Assembly: GCA_001769275.1 (NCBI GenBank)
Contig: MEOQ01000018.1
Location: 1-64,000, forward strand
Direction: 5' to 3'
Length of the DNA: 64,000 nucleotides
DNA from: Bacteroidetes bacterium GWF2_43_63
GTDB taxonomy: Bacteria > Bacteroidota > Bacteroidia > Bacteroidales > DTU049
Of the stretch, positions 18,179 to 48,999 are shown piece after piece. Below the pieces are notes generated by a model, which saw only the letters and a program-made list of their open reading frames with translations, was not told where the DNA came from and ran no database searches. Position numbers and translations under genes: made by a program. Every line of letters starts with the position of its first letter. Position 1 is the stretch's first letter.

Positions 18179-18484
18179 TGAAATACGAAGGTAGTAAAAT
18201 ACGAAATACGAAATCAGAAATACGAGAGAAAATGTGACGCTTCGCGCATGTGTGGCTTCGCCGATGTGGCGCTTCACGTGAGACGTGACACGGTCGCGAA
18301 TGTGGGAAGATTAGATTCTGGAAAGATTTGTAACGACTCACGCTTGCAGCGTGATAAATTCCACGTGTGACGAAAAAGGATTTGAAGAAAAATTACAAAA
18401 TAAAAAAAAGTTCATAGCAATTTGCAATTTAATATTCGGCTGCATACATTTGCATTGCATTCTCCGATAACAAAAGAATCAACA
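18179..18484. repeat. Spacer with AAATACG and CGCTTCGCG repeats
   Basis: Divergent spacer of about 306 bases. It contains AAATACGAAATACGAAATC (about 18199-18217), GACGCTTCGCGCATGTG and GTGGCGCTTCACGTG (18236-18280), relatives of the spacer at 4560-4790, and a CACGCT-TGC-AGCGTG hairpin near 18341. No gene apart from the promoter for the SGNH hydrolase. Confidence 0.5.
18421..18452 (+). promoter_or_regulatory. Promoter of the SGNH hydrolase gene
   Basis: TTTG at 18421-18424 and TACATTTG at 18445-18452 are separated by 20 bases, an exact Bacteroidota TTTG-N19-21-TAnnTTTG promoter. It lies about 32 bases before the ATG at 18485 and excludes the longer frame that begins at 18422. Confidence 0.7.
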
Positions 18485-19177
18485 ATGAAAATGAATCTGT
18501 TGAAAGTAATTTTCGGTTTCCTTTTATTAACCGGATTTACCGGGCTAAAGGCGCAAACTGTTCCTGTAACCGAAGGCAATGAAGGCAAGTACAAACCAAG
18601 CATCTATGGAACTTATTATGATGCAAAAAGAAGCTTTTTTGAGAGCATGCCCAATGATTCGAACGAGATCATTTTTCTCGGCAACAGCATCACTGATATG
18701 TGCGCATGGAATGAGCTTTTCGGAATGGAGAATGTGAAAAATCGTGGAATTAGTGGTGATGTGATTAATGGCGTTATAGACCGACTTGAGGAAGTTGTAA
18801 GCTCCTTTCCGAAAAAAATATTTTTGATGATCGGCACCAATGACCTGGCCAGGAAAAGAAGTGTTGATCAGATTCTCACTGATTATGAAAAACTCATCAC
18901 ACTGATTATTCAGAAAACACCGAAAACACAACTGTATCTTCAAAGTGTCTTGCCTACAAAGAATCAGACAACCCGAAACAACAACGACATTATTGAAATC
19001 AATAAAGGAATAAATGCACTTGCAAATAAATATTCACTGACCTATATAAACCTTTTTGATCTTTTCAAAACACCAGAAAATGAATTGAATATGGATTATT
19101 CATACGACGGGCTGCATTTGAACGGGCAGGGATATTTGTTGTGGAAAGATGCGGTGATTGAATATGTCGTTAAGTAA
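18485..19177 (+). CDS. Secreted SGNH/GDSL-type esterase
   Basis: The 230-residue protein has a signal peptide ending GLKAQ and the four SGNH blocks: GNSIT with the nucleophile Ser68, NRGISG, GTND and the C-terminal DGLHL carrying the Asp-x-x-His pair. Family members are lipases, acyl-CoA thioesterases or carbohydrate acetylesterases; the closest sequence feel is that of secreted sialate/glycan O-acetylesterase-like GDSL proteins of Bacteroidota, but the substrate is not readable. The gene is monocistronic, with its own promoter and a large palindromic structure after it. Confidence 0.9.
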   Translation: MKMNLLKVIFGFLLLTGFTGLKAQTVPVTEGNEGKYKPSIYGTYYDAKRSFFESMPNDSNEIIFLGNSITDMCAWNELFGMENVKNRGISGDVINGVIDRLEEVVSSFPKKIFLMIGTNDLARKRSVDQILTDYEKLITLIIQKTPKTQLYLQSVLPTKNQTTRNNNDIIEINKGINALANKYSLTYINLFDLFKTPENELNMDYSYDGLHLNGQGYLLWKDAVIEYVVK

Positions 19178-19202
19178 CTTTGCCTACGAAAACGAGCCTG
19201 TC

Positions 19203-19406
19203 TCAAAACCGGGTGTTGTTTCGACATTCCACCGTTCCGGCCAAAATTAACCCTCGAAGAGTTCCGAACTCTTCGAGGGTTTTCTAAAACAGGCCGGAAC
19301 ATGGAACCGTCGGAACAACAGCAAAAACAACGGTTCCATGTCCTTTCGCTCCTTCGTCGCTTTCGGACGGTGGAATGTTGTTTTTGCTCTGGGGGTTTCG
19401 TTTTGA
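19203..19406. repeat. Nested palindromic element, about 200 nt
   Basis: Perfect pairings seen: TCAAAAC (19203-19209) with GTTTTGA (19400-19406); ACATTCCACCGT (19224-19235) with ACGGTGGAATGT (19367-19378); GTTCCGGCC (19234-19242) with GGCCGGAAC (19292-19300); a 14-bp hairpin 19250-19263/19267-19280 with loop CCG; and CATGGAACCGT (19300-19310) with ACGGTTCCATG (19330-19340). Together they fold into a long stem closing two arms, like a three-way junction. It is not coding. The 14-bp hairpin followed by TTTT can end transcription of the SGNH gene. The whole may be a structured RNA or a non-autonomous palindromic mobile element. Confidence 0.65.
19250..19284 (+). terminator. Strong hairpin, likely terminator of the SGNH gene
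   Basis: ACCCTCGAAGAGTT, loop CCG, AACTCTTCGAGGGT followed by TTT. A perfect 14-bp stem 72 bases after the stop codon; being symmetric it could work in both directions. Confidence 0.65.
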
Positions 19407-19486
19407 AAAATCCTCTTACTATTCATCAACAATTCCCCGTTAATACTATTTTCTTCGCATACGAATTCAGGAGCTATTTTCGTTGT

Positions 19487-19494: not shown

Positions 19495-19509
19495 CCTATG
19501 TGCCGTACT

Positions 19510-20148
19510 ATGTCAATCCGAAAAGCCCTGATACTGCTGCTGATTCCGGTGGTTTTCTCCTCCTGCGCCGGACTGCGCGAGCATATCCGTGAACGACAGC
19601 TCGAGACCCACGGGCCACCGAAAAACATCAGAGACAATCGCAATGATCTCACAGAGCGGAAAGACAAAACACGACGCGACACCCTTTCAAACATCAGCGA
19701 AAGAAATGCCCCCACTGGTGTTTATGCCAAATACGGAGAAAAGTGGAAGGTTGAATTAAGCGGAACCGAAGACGCGAAATTTCTTGAAGAAATTGACTCC
19801 TGGCTCGGGACACCTTACGTGTACGGAGGTGAGTGTAAAAAAGGCACCGACTGCAGCGGCATGATCCTGGCCATGTACGAAACAATATACAATCTTGCGC
19901 TTAACCGCAGCGCCAACGACATGCAGAAAGATGTCCGCTTTATTGATATCGATAAAGCACAACTCGGTGATGTTTTGTTTTTTAAAATCAATGGCGACCG
20001 CGTCAGCCATGTAGGGCTGTATCTGGGCAGCCGCCGCTTTATACATGCCACCACCAGCAAAGGCGTAATGATCAGCAGCCTCGATGAAGATTATTATTCG
20101 AAGCGATATTATAAATGCGGGCGGATTGTGGCGATGGAGAGACAATAG
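19510..20148 (+). CDS. NlpC/P60 (C40) cell-wall peptidase lipoprotein
   Basis: Starting at 19510 the 212-residue protein has a lipoprotein signal (MSIRKALILLLIPVVFSSC) and a charged linker, then an NlpC/P60 domain (about 93-210). The catalytic residues are visible: Cys115 in GTDCSGM, His167 in VSHVGLYL and His179 in FIHATT. C40 enzymes cut D-Glu-diaminopimelate bonds in peptidoglycan stem peptides, so this is a cell-wall remodelling enzyme anchored to a membrane. It stands alone between the palindromic element and a repeat spacer. Confidence 0.93.
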   Translation: MSIRKALILLLIPVVFSSCAGLREHIRERQLETHGPPKNIRDNRNDLTERKDKTRRDTLSNISERNAPTGVYAKYGEKWKVELSGTEDAKFLEEIDSWLGTPYVYGGECKKGTDCSGMILAMYETIYNLALNRSANDMQKDVRFIDIDKAQLGDVLFFKINGDRVSHVGLYLGSRRFIHATTSKGVMISSLDEDYYSKRYYKCGRIVAMERQ

Positions 20149-20298: not shown

Positions 20299-23200
20299 CT
20301 AAAATGATTTTACTGCGCGGACATTGCACGTTACATTCTTTGAGTTGTTGTTAACGTCGCCGAAATAGAATTGAAAATAAAAACCATTAGAAGAAGTGTA
20401 CTCAGTGCTGCTCCAATAATTCAAATCCTTCGCAAGAACTGCTGAGCCTATTGCTCTGGCAGTTTTATTAACGTGATAACGATTATGCCAAAGCAAAATC
20501 AATTCGTCAATTGATGGCAAGTACCATTCTGGCCCAAGGGTTTCCACCCAAAGGCGGGCAGTACCAGCACCAGTTGACATTAAAGATGTGTTATAAGCTC
20601 CATCTTCAGTTGTATTTGCTCCAATAAATGTCGAGCCACCGTAAATTGCAGTTGTTTCCGTTTTTGAAACAATCAAACCATGCTGCTCACCATCACTTCC
20701 TGAATAAATATAATATACAATGCCCCCTAAAGTATCCTGTCCCAGATAGAATTTTGGTTGTGCCACTCCAAATACATAGGGATCAGTAGCCGTTCCGGTT
20801 CCGGTAACAGTAATATTATTGCCGGCTGTTATATGTGTTTCCGATCCGTCAGTAACTGGTTTGTCACTCAGATCATTATAACTGCCACTTGTAGCAACTG
20901 TTGCCAGACTGTTCCAGCCCAAAACTCCTGCGCCGTTTGTGGTCAAAACCTGCCCACTTGTACCATCTGAATTTGGAAAACCATATGCGTTATTGATATT
21001 CAGATTGCTGTAAACTGTCAGCGTTGCTGTGCTGAAATCGCCGTACAGGAGCGGTGTTGAGGTATTGCTGTTTGATATGTACAGTTTGTTGGAGCCGGTT
21101 TCGTTTAAACCTGCTTCGTTACCAATAAAAACATTGTAAGAGCCCGTCGCATAAAACCCGGCCGCAAATCCGATAGAAACATTATAGCTACCTGACGCAT
21201 TATTATACAAACTGCTTGTTCCGATACTCGTGTTTTTATTTCCGGAAGTATTAAAACGCAGACTTCCTCCCCCAATTGCAGTATTCTCAATTCCATCCGC
21301 ATTATAATTCATAGAGCTCCTACCAATAGCGGTATTTTGCGTTCCGGTTGAATTAGTCAATAATGCTTCCTGCCCAAAAGCAACGTTACTATAGCCAGTA
21401 GTATTGCTATTTAATGCCTGTTCGCCAAACGCGACATTCCAGTATCCGGTTGTATTGCTACTTAAAGCGCCATTCCCCATTGCTGTATTTGTCAAAATAC
21501 TCCCCCCACCTCTACCTACTCTCACCCCATTGATCTGCGCATCAGCAGAGACATCCAGCTTGTAAGCCGGTGTTGTTGTACCAATACCCACATTTGTCCC
21601 ATCATCGTAAACACCTGATGAAACCAGTGCTGTTCCATTCCATGTGGCAAGATAGTTTGTACTGTTTGTACCAACTTCAGGATCAACTTCAGTAAATGAT
21701 GTCAGATATCCTGCGTCGTTTGTAAATGAACTCACATTCGTTGGCGCTCCTGTCAGACTGCTGTACTGGCCATCAAACAAAAGTGGTTTATCACTTAAAT
21801 CATTATAGCTGCCGCTTGTTGCAACCGTTGCAAGACTGTTCCATCCTAAAAGTCCGGCACCATTTGTTGACAAAATCTGTCCATTTGTTCCGTCTGCATT
21901 TGGAAATGCATATGCGTTATTGATGTTCAGATTGCTGTAAACAGTAAGTGTTGCTGTGCTGAAATCGCCGTATATAAGCGGTGTTGAGGTGCTGCTGTTG
22001 GCAATATAGAGCTTGTTTGAACCGTATTCATTATAACCAGTCTGGTAGCCAAGAAAAACATTGTTTGATCCGGAAATGCCATTGAACCCAGCCTCCTGGC
22101 CCAGAGCCACGTTATTGTTTCCTGTTGTGTTCCGCAATAGCGCATCACGTCCAACAGCAGTGTTATTATCACCAGTTGTATTGGCACCTAATGACTGCAA
22201 TCCTAACGAAGTATTTGAATTACCGTCAATGTTGTTTGTCAATGCCTGACATCCGAGGGCTGTATTCCATTTCCCAATTGTGTTGGCATATAGTGTGTGC
22301 TGCCCAATAGCCGTGTTCGTACTACCAGTCGTATTACTGAATAAGGAATAAAAACCCACAGCCGTATTAGCAAAGCCAGAAGAGTTAGTCATTAATGCAT
22401 AACTTCCAATCATAACATTGCTCGCCTGATTACCACCACCTCTTCCAACGCGTACGCCATTTATTTGCGCATCAGCAGCGACATCCAGCTTGTAGGACGG
22501 TGTTGCAGTTCCAATACCTACATTCGTTCCGTCATCGTAAACAACCGATGAAACCAGTGCTGTTCCATTCCATTTGGAAACATAATTGGTTGTATTGATA
22601 CCAACTTCCGGATCAATTTCTGTAAACGAGGTGAGATATCCCGCATCGTTTGTAAATGAACTCACATTTGTTGGTGCGCCTGTCAGGCTGCTGTACTGGC
22701 CATCGAAGCCCGCTGGGAGTTTTACAAAGCCTCCGTTTGTCAGGCGGATAGTGTCGTTGCTGATGCTCAGAATTTGTATTTCATTTGTTACTGATCCATC
22801 AACTTCGGTGAATGAGGTGAGATATCCGGCATCATTTGTAAATGCACTAACAGTCGTTGGTACAACAGGGATTGTGGGTGTGTTTATAAGACTGTTGTAA
22901 TCGCCATCGAAGCCGGCAGGGAGTTTTACAAAACCTCCGTTTGTCAGGCGTATGGTATCATTACTGATGCTCAGAATTTGTATTTCATTTGTTATTGATC
23001 CATCAACTTCAGTGAATGAAGTGAGATATCCGGCGTCGTTCGTAAATGCACTAACAGTCGTTGGCACAACAGGGATTGTGGGTGTGTTTATAAGACTGTT
23101 GTAATCACCATCGAAGCCGGCGGGCAATTTTACAAAACCTCCGTTTGTGAGACGGATGGTGTCGTTGCTGATACTCAGAATTTGTATTTCATTGGAAATA

Positions 23201-23709
23201 TCACCATCAACTTCAGTGCTGAGCTTGTTATTCCAGTTGATGATATCTGTTGCCGTAATCGTTGCTGCTGCTGATAAATCAAACACCGGATCGGTTTCGG
23301 TAATTCCGCCGACAACACTTTCGGCTGTTTTTGCATGCAATGCATAAGGCACGCTCAAAAGCTCACTGGTTCCCGATATCGTGTAAGTCGTGCCACCTGT
23401 TATATCAGTTTCAGTTTTTATAAAATACGGACCATTGCTCCAATCAATCGCATCGAAGCCAACACCGTTCCCGATTTCAATACTCACAAGACCATTCGCA
23501 TTCGTTGTCGGGGTCTGCGTTTCATAATACACAACCGTTCCCGTTGACGAGCCCTGCAAAATGCTGATCTGCATTCCGACAGCTGTATTGGTTACAAGCA
23601 GATCGCTGGTATTGCGAATAACTGCCTGATAACTGAGTTTCTGAGGAGCCTGAGCAAATGCAGCTGCAACAAGCATTGTAAACAAAACAACAGTAAATAT
23701 TCTTTTCAT
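20299..23709 (-). CDS. Surface repeat protein with YadA-head-like repeats and DUF1566 domain, 1136 aa
   Basis: A signal peptide ends at AAAFAQ. Residues 20-170 resemble the N-terminal part of many Bacteroidota surface proteins (LSYQAVIRN). Residues 174-330 are near-perfect 68-residue tandem repeats (ISNDTIRLTNGGFVKLPAG), followed by two blocks of about seven and eight 17-residue units of the form NTAxGxxxLxxNTTGxx, like the beta-roll head of YadA adhesins and phage tail-fibre tips. The blocks are separated by a second large duplication (VGIGTATPSYKLDV). A DUF1566 domain (ARLWVETLGPEWYLPSIDEL, NYWSSTEY) ends the protein. A trimeric adhesin-like surface structure is inferred. It lies 2 bases after a small T9SS gene. 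Confidence 0.85.
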   Translation of the reverse strand: MKRIFTVVLFTMLVAAAFAQAPQKLSYQAVIRNTSDLLVTNTAVGMQISILQGSSTGTVVYYETQTPTTNANGLVSIEIGNGVGFDAIDWSNGPYFIKTETDITGGTTYTISGTSELLSVPYALHAKTAESVVGGITETDPVFDLSAAATITATDIINWNNKLSTEVDGDISNEIQILSISNDTIRLTNGGFVKLPAGFDGDYNSLINTPTIPVVPTTVSAFTNDAGYLTSFTEVDGSITNEIQILSISNDTIRLTNGGFVKLPAGFDGDYNSLINTPTIPVVPTTVSAFTNDAGYLTSFTEVDGSVTNEIQILSISNDTIRLTNGGFVKLPAGFDGQYSSLTGAPTNVSSFTNDAGYLTSFTEIDPEVGINTTNYVSKWNGTALVSSVVYDDGTNVGIGTATPSYKLDVAADAQINGVRVGRGGGNQASNVMIGSYALMTNSSGFANTAVGFYSLFSNTTGSTNTAIGQHTLYANTIGKWNTALGCQALTNNIDGNSNTSLGLQSLGANTTGDNNTAVGRDALLRNTTGNNNVALGQEAGFNGISGSNNVFLGYQTGYNEYGSNKLYIANSSTSTPLIYGDFSTATLTVYSNLNINNAYAFPNADGTNGQILSTNGAGLLGWNSLATVATSGSYNDLSDKPLLFDGQYSSLTGAPTNVSSFTNDAGYLTSFTEVDPEVGTNSTNYLATWNGTALVSSGVYDDGTNVGIGTTTPAYKLDVSADAQINGVRVGRGGGSILTNTAMGNGALSSNTTGYWNVAFGEQALNSNTTGYSNVAFGQEALLTNSTGTQNTAIGRSSMNYNADGIENTAIGGGSLRFNTSGNKNTSIGTSSLYNNASGSYNVSIGFAAGFYATGSYNVFIGNEAGLNETGSNKLYISNSNTSTPLLYGDFSTATLTVYSNLNINNAYGFPNSDGTSGQVLTTNGAGVLGWNSLATVATSGSYNDLSDKPVTDGSETHITAGNNITVTGTGTATDPYVFGVAQPKFYLGQDTLGGIVYYIYSGSDGEQHGLIVSKTETTAIYGGSTFIGANTTEDGAYNTSLMSTGAGTARLWVETLGPEWYLPSIDELILLWHNRYHVNKTARAIGSAVLAKDLNYWSSTEYTSSNGFYFQFYFGDVNNNSKNVTCNVRAVKSF
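22615..23190 (-). repeat. 204-bp tandem repeats inside the surface protein gene
   Basis: Three units (23190-22987, 22986-22783 and a third that diverges near its end at about 22615) each encode a 68-residue module. Protein identity is almost complete, while the DNA differs mainly at third positions, so the copies have been kept by selection rather than by very recent duplication. Confidence 0.8.
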
Positions 23710-24565: not shown

Positions 24566-24676
24566 ACGAATTCAATTTAAATTTTCCTACTCATTTGGCT
24601 TTTCGGATCCGCCCCGTTTTTTCCCGCCTTGGCGGAGTGGAATCTGGGCTCCACTTGTTTTTGAACTATCAATCGT

Positions 24677-48903: not shown

Positions 48904-48926
48904 TGTTGTAAAAGTAGCTTAAGAGT

Positions 48927-48999
48927 GACTCCGAAGGGATTCGAACCCCCAACCAACAGAACCGGAATCTGCCATTCTATCCAATTGAACTACGGAGCC
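48927..48999 (-). tRNA. tRNA-Arg (anticodon CCG)
   Basis: On the minus strand: acceptor GGCTCCG pairing with CGGAGTC (one G-T), a D arm with GTTCAATTGGATA, anticodon stem GCAGA/TCTGT with loop TTCCGGT (anticodon CCG, reading CGG), and a T arm with GGGGGTTCGAATCCC. 73 bases without encoded CCA. It is flanked by a partial copy of its own 3' end. Confidence 0.95.

Follow-up and report, generated by a model that had tools for sequence, protein, structure and literature searches.

A dispersed palindrome of a Bacteroidales genome resembles a REP doublet enclosed by IS1182-type terminal repeats

The window, that is, the whole stretch of 64,000 nucleotides that was analysed, contains a palindromic element of 222 bp (19194–19415, + strand) in the spacer between the ORFs 18422–19177 and 19498–20148 of the window's ORF list, which an earlier sequence-only reading had labelled SGNH-like and NlpC-like, respectively. 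The element starts about 19 bp past the stop of the former ORF and ends about 82 bp before the latter, and the spacer is gene-free, as that reading had stated. The extent proposed earlier, 19203–19406, was in the right place and slightly too small, for the terminal repeats lie at 19194–19208 and 19401–19415. Elsewhere in the window, a 1136-codon ORF with internal repeats (20299–23709, - strand) lies downstream of the NlpC-like gene, a match to the Rfam family RF03081 (DUF805 RNA) was found at 24580–24659 (- strand, 58.7 bits, gathering score 51.1), and a tRNA match at 48926–48999 (- strand, 59.4 bits).

The spacer folds far more strongly than chance, with z scores of -8.59 (+ strand) and -8.41 (- strand), and none of 200 shuffles folded as well on either strand. 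Perfect 12-bp arms pair 19224–19235 with 19367–19378, 19299–19310 with 19330–19341, and 19320–19331 with 19377–19388, perfect 16-bp arms pair 19249–19264 with 19266–19281, and imperfect arms join 19214–19242 to 19292–19320. The 7-mer TCAAAAC at 19203 is part of an arm pairing with 19400–19415. The sequence-only reading had described five nested perfect pairs of 7, 12, 9, 14 and 11 bp; strong arms indeed lie where it placed them, but not every length could be matched to a listed arm, and the pairs cannot all nest, because the arms 19320–19331/19377–19388 cross the arms 19224–19235/19367–19378. The minimum-energy fold of the + strand consists instead of two tandem hairpins, H1 (19215–19319) and H2 (19320–19388).

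Further copies were found in this genome (G000; G, L and C codes denote genomes, loci and contigs) and in one congener, the second genome of the genus Acetofilamentum (G002). BLAST with the element gave at least 40 distinct places in G000 among the best 40 of 109 candidates scored, and a second-subfamily query gave further copies among the best 40 of 86, the copy numbers for G000 being lower bounds. Among the 59 relatives searched, G002 contained about a dozen divergent copies, and the others gave only matches of E 0.005 or weaker. We compiled 67 full doublets, at least 59 in G000 and 8 in G002, out of 72 parsed; four of the dropped rows misparsed or misoriented copies that had already been included, and the fifth, near 2837 of L137, appears to be a genuine additional copy whose orientation was misassigned. 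A box-hairpin pattern matched 107 times in G000 and never in the reversed control. Across Bacteroidales, any match was seen in 33 of 393 genomes, mostly single and chance-like, with controls also yielding single matches, and a few of these genomes contained true box hairpins with varying but paired tips. Viral contigs had no match to a 20-base core, and a search of genome contigs returned eight stretches, seven from one Acetofilamentum MAG and one from Pseudomonas luteola, the latter without a box hairpin.

Copies were located mostly in spacers: 60 of the 67 lay between ORFs, three overlapped an ORF of at least 110 codons and four were at locus edges, and the median distances were 59 bp to gene 3' ends and 90 bp to 5' ends. 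At the window's orthologous position in three relatives (G001, G002 and G005), the flippase-like and NlpC-like genes are adjacent and the spacer contains no element. The SGNH gene is also absent from these empty sites, so that its gain and that of the element are inseparable. The earlier suggestion of a non-autonomous mobile palindrome is supported by the copies in the genome and the congener, their terminal inverted repeats, their intergenic placement and, with this reservation, the empty sites; both copies elsewhere and covariation, whose joint absence would have spoken against the suggestion, are present. Three copies of G002 (L095, L096 and L104) lie within another repeat with CACGAATT motifs, and L104 also shows H1 alone between both terminal repeats.

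Each copy consists of the two hairpins in inverted orientation and contains four 12-base boxes, namely a (ACATTCCACCGT), b (ACATGGAACCGT), b' (ACGGTTCCATGT) and a' (ACGGTGGAATGT), which carry C-to-T and G-to-A variants in a second subfamily. Box a pairs with b in H1, and b' pairs with a' in H2. In the window, H1 (+ strand) runs from its outer stem through box a (19224–19235), the tip and box b (19299–19310) back to the outer stem, and H2 (- strand) has an outer stem (19320–19331/19377–19388) enclosing b' (19330–19341) and a' (19367–19378). Both hairpins have a 5-bp core, TTCCA/TGGAA, between two unequal internal loops (1 versus 2 nt). Since H2 is the box arrangement of H1 inverted, each of the pairs a/a' and b/b' is complementary as well, which produces the junction described earlier. 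The H1 tip is a variable module that differs between copies and contains a 16-bp perfect palindrome in the window (19249–19281). Some tips consist of a long palindrome, others of a stem CCGCC...GGCGG or of different sequence, and one type can recur in different subfamilies. Tip modules are common to subfamilies with differing outer parts, as if exchanged.

Compensatory changes, which the sequence-only reading had proposed to look for, were found mostly in the two hairpins. Seventeen of their 42 pairs were changed on both sides, compared with 5.9 ± 1.5 in shuffles (0/500 reached this number), and 94.0% of cells were paired; sliding-partner controls gave 7–10 doubly changed pairs with 27–47% of cells paired. 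For the three-way junction, only 4 of 24 pairs were doubly changed, a number equal to the shuffle mean and reached by 494 of 500 shuffles, and all four came from a single C-to-T/G-to-A subfamily switch. The junction was rejected as the main fold on this ground. Its pairing is nevertheless kept in 98.0% of cells, and two measures exceeded all shuffles: doubly changed cells (87 versus 33.5) and the covariation score (0.148 versus 0.081). In the G002 copies, the H1 and H2 cores each pair in 40 of 40 cells, the junction arms are Watson-Crick paired in 88 and 84 of 96, and the H2 core TTCCA/TGGAA has been swapped as a pair for TGCCA/TGGCA (L094 and L097) or TTTCA/TGAAA (L101). In L137, both outer stems were replaced with pairing kept. 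In our reading, selection has acted on the hairpins, and the junction pairing follows from their inverted arrangement; a long-range alternative fold is less supported than the two hairpins.

G.T pairs were gained on the + strand in H1 and on the - strand in H2, which fits inverted DNA units better than a single transcript. This bears on whether the copies are structured RNAs, or bidirectional terminators or mRNA-stability elements selected for function in 3' regions, an explanation that we regard as quite improbable. Strong folding on both strands, covariation, and the intergenic placement with its shorter median distance to 3' ends are what such elements would show, but the opposite-strand G.T gains are not. 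No family of Rfam 15 reached its gathering score at the element, the best sub-threshold match being rdlD with 29.9 bits against 50, and a terminator scan found two sites compared with 0.8 ± 0.9 in shuffles. The gene pairs around the 60 intergenic copies (35 tandem, 16 convergent and 9 divergent) were near the 2:1:1 null. Nothing found supported a trans-acting structured RNA. An integron attC-like reading was discarded on inspection by eye.

The hairpin framework was also found beside genes of RAYTs (REP-associated Y1 tyrosine transposases). We worded this framed scaffold as AC-N-(5-bp core)-NC-GT...AC-N-(core')-NC-GT after matches had been seen in many of the RAYT loci. It gave 52 matches in 17 of 40 RAYT-like loci, several of the matches pairing boxes of neighbouring hairpins and so representing fewer independent hairpins, compared with none in 66 control loci, some of which overlap one another, and 0.0 per dinucleotide shuffle. 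The controls leave out L032 of G005, a locus picked by its BLAST likeness to the element; by eye it fits the frame, and with it the control becomes 1/67. Distances to the RAYT gene were 47–576 bp for the 36 measurable matches. The remaining 23 of the 40 RAYT loci had no framed scaffold, and among previously unshown RAYT loci (L301–L304, L306 and L307) it was present in three of six. Within the 64-kb window, the only two matches were H1 (19224–19310, + strand) and H2 (19330–19378, - strand). A sequence-free scaffold test gave 24 matches in 14 of 33 RAYT loci versus 2 in 56 controls, and box units were matched 20 times in 6 of 24 RAYT loci (79.6 kb) versus once in 67 control loci (176 kb), the single control match being L032, of the same family.

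The core of the dispersed copies, TTCCA/TGGAA, was found in RAYT loci of G002, G353 and G207; in G002, such hairpins lie on both sides of the RAYT gene of C243 and around that of C144. The RAYT genes of G000 itself have the same scaffold with other cores, TTTTA/TGGAA and TTTTG/CGGAA, and those at further RAYT loci were TTCGA/TCGAA, TCCAA/TTGGA, TTCAA/TTGAA, TGACA/TGTCA and TCAAT/ATTGA. Across RAYT loci, the frame is thus constant and the core changes as a base-paired unit. A hairpin scan demanding exact TTCCA...TGGAA misses the hairpins at G002 C144 and at the RAYT genes of G000. Among the RAYT-side hairpins listed for G000 and G002, none showed an IS1182-type terminal repeat.

The RAYT-like protein of G353 (L244) matched NF047646 (REP-associated tyrosine transposase) with an E value of 3.2e-13, below the model cut-off, and PF01797 just under its cut-off. 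A search with this protein found RAYT homologues in 9 of 13 genomes, with seven match rows in G000. In G353 and G207, box hairpins lie on both sides of the RAYT-like gene in a shared neighbourhood of a receptor-like gene and one that, judged from its translation, is presumably ispG-like. The RAYTs carry NHFH or NHYH motifs and YI(N/H)-type (YIxxNP-like) motifs. A search with PF01797 had found three Y1 genes in G000 and, within the mismatch limits applied, no boxes in their vicinity; the reading of 'no RAYT link' taken from it was wrong for the relevant group, which the protein query found later, because these RAYTs do not score above the Pfam cut-off. When RAYTs were searched for across the class at E 1e-35, G000 alone was returned among 395 genomes, which yielded no fresh test loci outside the order.

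Three further observations concern single RAYT loci. G107 (L242) has the gene pair and the hairpin without the RAYT, forming a natural presence/absence pair with L243 and L244 of G207 and G353. Two TTCCA...TGGAA hairpins lie within a RAYT reading frame around 1722 and 1772 of L250 (G035:C14). The RAYT gene of L254 (G000:C17) is flanked by tandem copies of a different, frameless repeat.

The dispersed copies are bounded by a 15-bp terminal inverted repeat with the consensus GAGGCTGTCTCAAAA. In the window, the left repeat (19194–19208, + strand) is GAGCCTGTCTCAAAA, with one mismatch to GAGRCTGTCTMAAAA, and the right repeat (19401–19415, - strand), which reads TTTTGAAAAATCCTC on the + strand, is degraded in this copy, with three mismatches. 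Both ends were found with at most four mismatches in 54 of the 67 copies, and GAGRCTGTCTMAAAA with at most one mismatch occurred 61 times in G000 and not at all in the reversed control. The exact GAGGCTGTCTCAAAA was present in 82 of 295 Bacteroidales genomes, with a single reversed-control match seen. In G167, it forms the left end of an IS1182 element of 1773 bp. The right end of that element shows two mismatches, and its ORF pieces match NF033551, the model of the IS1182 transposase (2.6e-60 and 2.2e-49); the same model had no match in G000, G001, G002 and G003, all of which are drafts. In other Bacteroidales, the repeat brackets unrelated inserts of 3–400 bp; those of L188, L189, L191, L192, L193 and L195 are short, and several are palindromic repeats themselves. 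Hairpins of terminal repeats only, 33–64 bp long, were seen at L187 (482–514, 33 bp), L073 (617–661, 45 bp), L081 and L077, those of G000 (L073, L077 and L081) spanning 41–64 bp; some are terminator-like, and that of L187 has a T-rich tail.

The two ends within a copy match each other better than ends between copies (671 versus 638.7 ± 5.4; the maximum of 2000 permutations was 658). Palindromic flanks (score of at least 8) were observed in 8 of 54 copies, on which the whole signal rests, compared with a permutation mean of 1.3 and maximum of 5. No target duplication was clear, the best being one of 3 bp in 6 of 54 copies versus 2.25 expected, with many lengths and offsets tried. Subfamilies keep their own repeat variant, such as GAGACTGTCTAAAAA...TTTTTAGACAGACTC in one group, and their own stretch between terminal repeat and core.

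These ends could be read as target sites: a terminator-like hairpin that is widespread, GAGGCTGTCTCAAAA...TTTTGAGACAGCCTC, would have received in its loop a REP doublet moved by a RAYT. The short repeat-only hairpins, such as L187 with its T-rich tail and L073, speak for this reading, as do the matched ends of each copy. We nevertheless consider it improbable: the subfamily-specific repeats and adjoining stretches imply that the repeats travel with the core, and an IS1182 element ends in this very repeat.

Another reading, which we consider rather unlikely, takes the copies as plain IS1182-derived MITEs, with all movement due to an IS1182-type transposase and the hairpin interior as a palindrome that is carried along or arose by chance; its resemblance to the hairpins at RAYT genes would then reveal no more than the origin of the passenger. 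It would account for the exact 15-mer in so many Bacteroidales genomes around unrelated inserts, for the pairs of terminal repeats without an interior in G000, and for the retention of both ends in most copies. Three observations argue against it. The core is conserved better than the stretch between ends and core, a RAYT-adjacent box hairpin occurs without these ends in G002 (L100/L257), and L137 of G000 is a doublet with other outer stems and no IS1182-type ends.

The element shares several features with REP, BIME and REPIN sequences: its short hairpins have conserved stem interruptions in the form of two internal loops, its copies are many, dispersed and mainly intergenic, its hairpins form inverted pairs, and its scaffold lies beside RAYT genes, although the cores flanking the RAYT genes of G000 differ. 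In contrast to canonical REPs, it lacks a GTAG/GT[AG]G 5' foot, which no more than 3 of 67 copies show for any motif on either side, and unlike REP, BIME and REPIN sequences it has two AC/GT-framed internal loops of the 1x2 type and lies within IS1182-type repeats. The closest RAYT group is probably subclass 2.4 of Quentin et al. 2018 (PMC6006769); that paper reports the subclass from Bacteroidetes, with REPs located even within the gene, as are the two TTCCA hairpins in the RAYT frame of G035. The motifs are NHFH or NHYH here, with NHYH in G000, whereas the subclass 2.4 table of that paper gives NH[IFV]H.

As in IS1182-family MITEs, the terminal repeat matches exactly the left terminus of an IS1182 element, and no gene lies inside. 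Unlike in these, no partner transposase was found in the genus drafts G000–G003, and the interior is a RAYT-type hairpin pair rather than an IS deletion derivative. IS1272 of the IS1182 family is described in PMC5678879 as replacing inverted repeats without target duplication; the present element, with no clear duplication and palindromic flanks in 8 of 54 copies, may resemble it in kind. The CGTC-tagged REPs are described in PMC3733652 with 8–9-bp stems, 4–5-nt loops and no associated transposase. The element is similarly made of short palindromes with dimers common, but it differs from that description in its internal loops and RAYT link, and it has no uninterrupted 8–9-bp stem.

ERIC-type repeats are, like the present element, long imperfect palindromes in spacers with dozens of copies. 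The element is not known to be related to ERIC in sequence and differs in showing a transposase link.

In build and kin, the element of the window is a REP doublet; with no GT[AG]G foot, it is not classed as a canonical GTAG REP. On its copies, terminal repeats, anatomy, two-hairpin covariation, the scaffold at RAYT genes and the identity of the repeat with an IS1182 end, we consider a BIME- or REPIN-like REP doublet inside IS1182-type ends to be its probable description. Inside, H1 (+ strand) and H2 (- strand) form an inverted pair of REP-type hairpins like those found beside RAYT genes in Bacteroidales; outside, they are enclosed by a terminal inverted repeat of 15 bp that belongs to the IS1182-family type. 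From this build, we infer how the enzymes may have acted. A RAYT would recognize the hairpin in its folded, single-stranded form by the two AC/GT-framed internal loops of 1x2 nt. An IS1182-type transposase acting in trans would have cut and pasted the doublet by its ends, presumably with a preference for palindromic targets by analogy with IS1272. The doublet may thus have acquired IS1182-type ends and then spread into spacers. The element is probably transcribed with the upstream gene, and it may have a side effect on 3'-end formation.

The full two-enzyme history, in which the doublet originated as a substrate of a RAYT before IS1182-type ends came to carry it, is tentative, and we give it somewhat less than an even chance. 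We hold with similar caution, leaning slightly towards doubt, the joint proposal of a hybrid element of two unrelated transposase systems together with a REP code that this group of Bacteroidales RAYTs would share. In the hybrid, the REP doublet, a single-strand substrate of an HUH/Y1 RAYT, would lie between the ends of an IS1182-family transposon of the double-strand DDE kind, and these ends could have freed doublets from the RAYT gene, leading to their spread and to the swapping of hairpin tips. The code would consist of the fixed AC-N-[5 bp]-NC-GT frame and a 5-bp core, freely covarying and different from one RAYT locus to another, which could determine RAYT-REP specificity. No paper listed in searches of the freely accessible literature described REP doublets inside IS1182 ends.

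These results address two open questions, namely the spread of REPs and the way in which a RAYT distinguishes its own REPs from others. In the portions of the literature consulted on this phylum, RAYT-linked structures are otherwise described only as long, double-foot or 'atypical', and a fixed frame with a pairwise-changing core is a direct, testable candidate for a RAYT-REP specificity code. If IS1182-type ends carry doublets, a second, unrelated enzyme can amplify REP populations, and such carriage would, if true, explain REP families without an active cognate RAYT.
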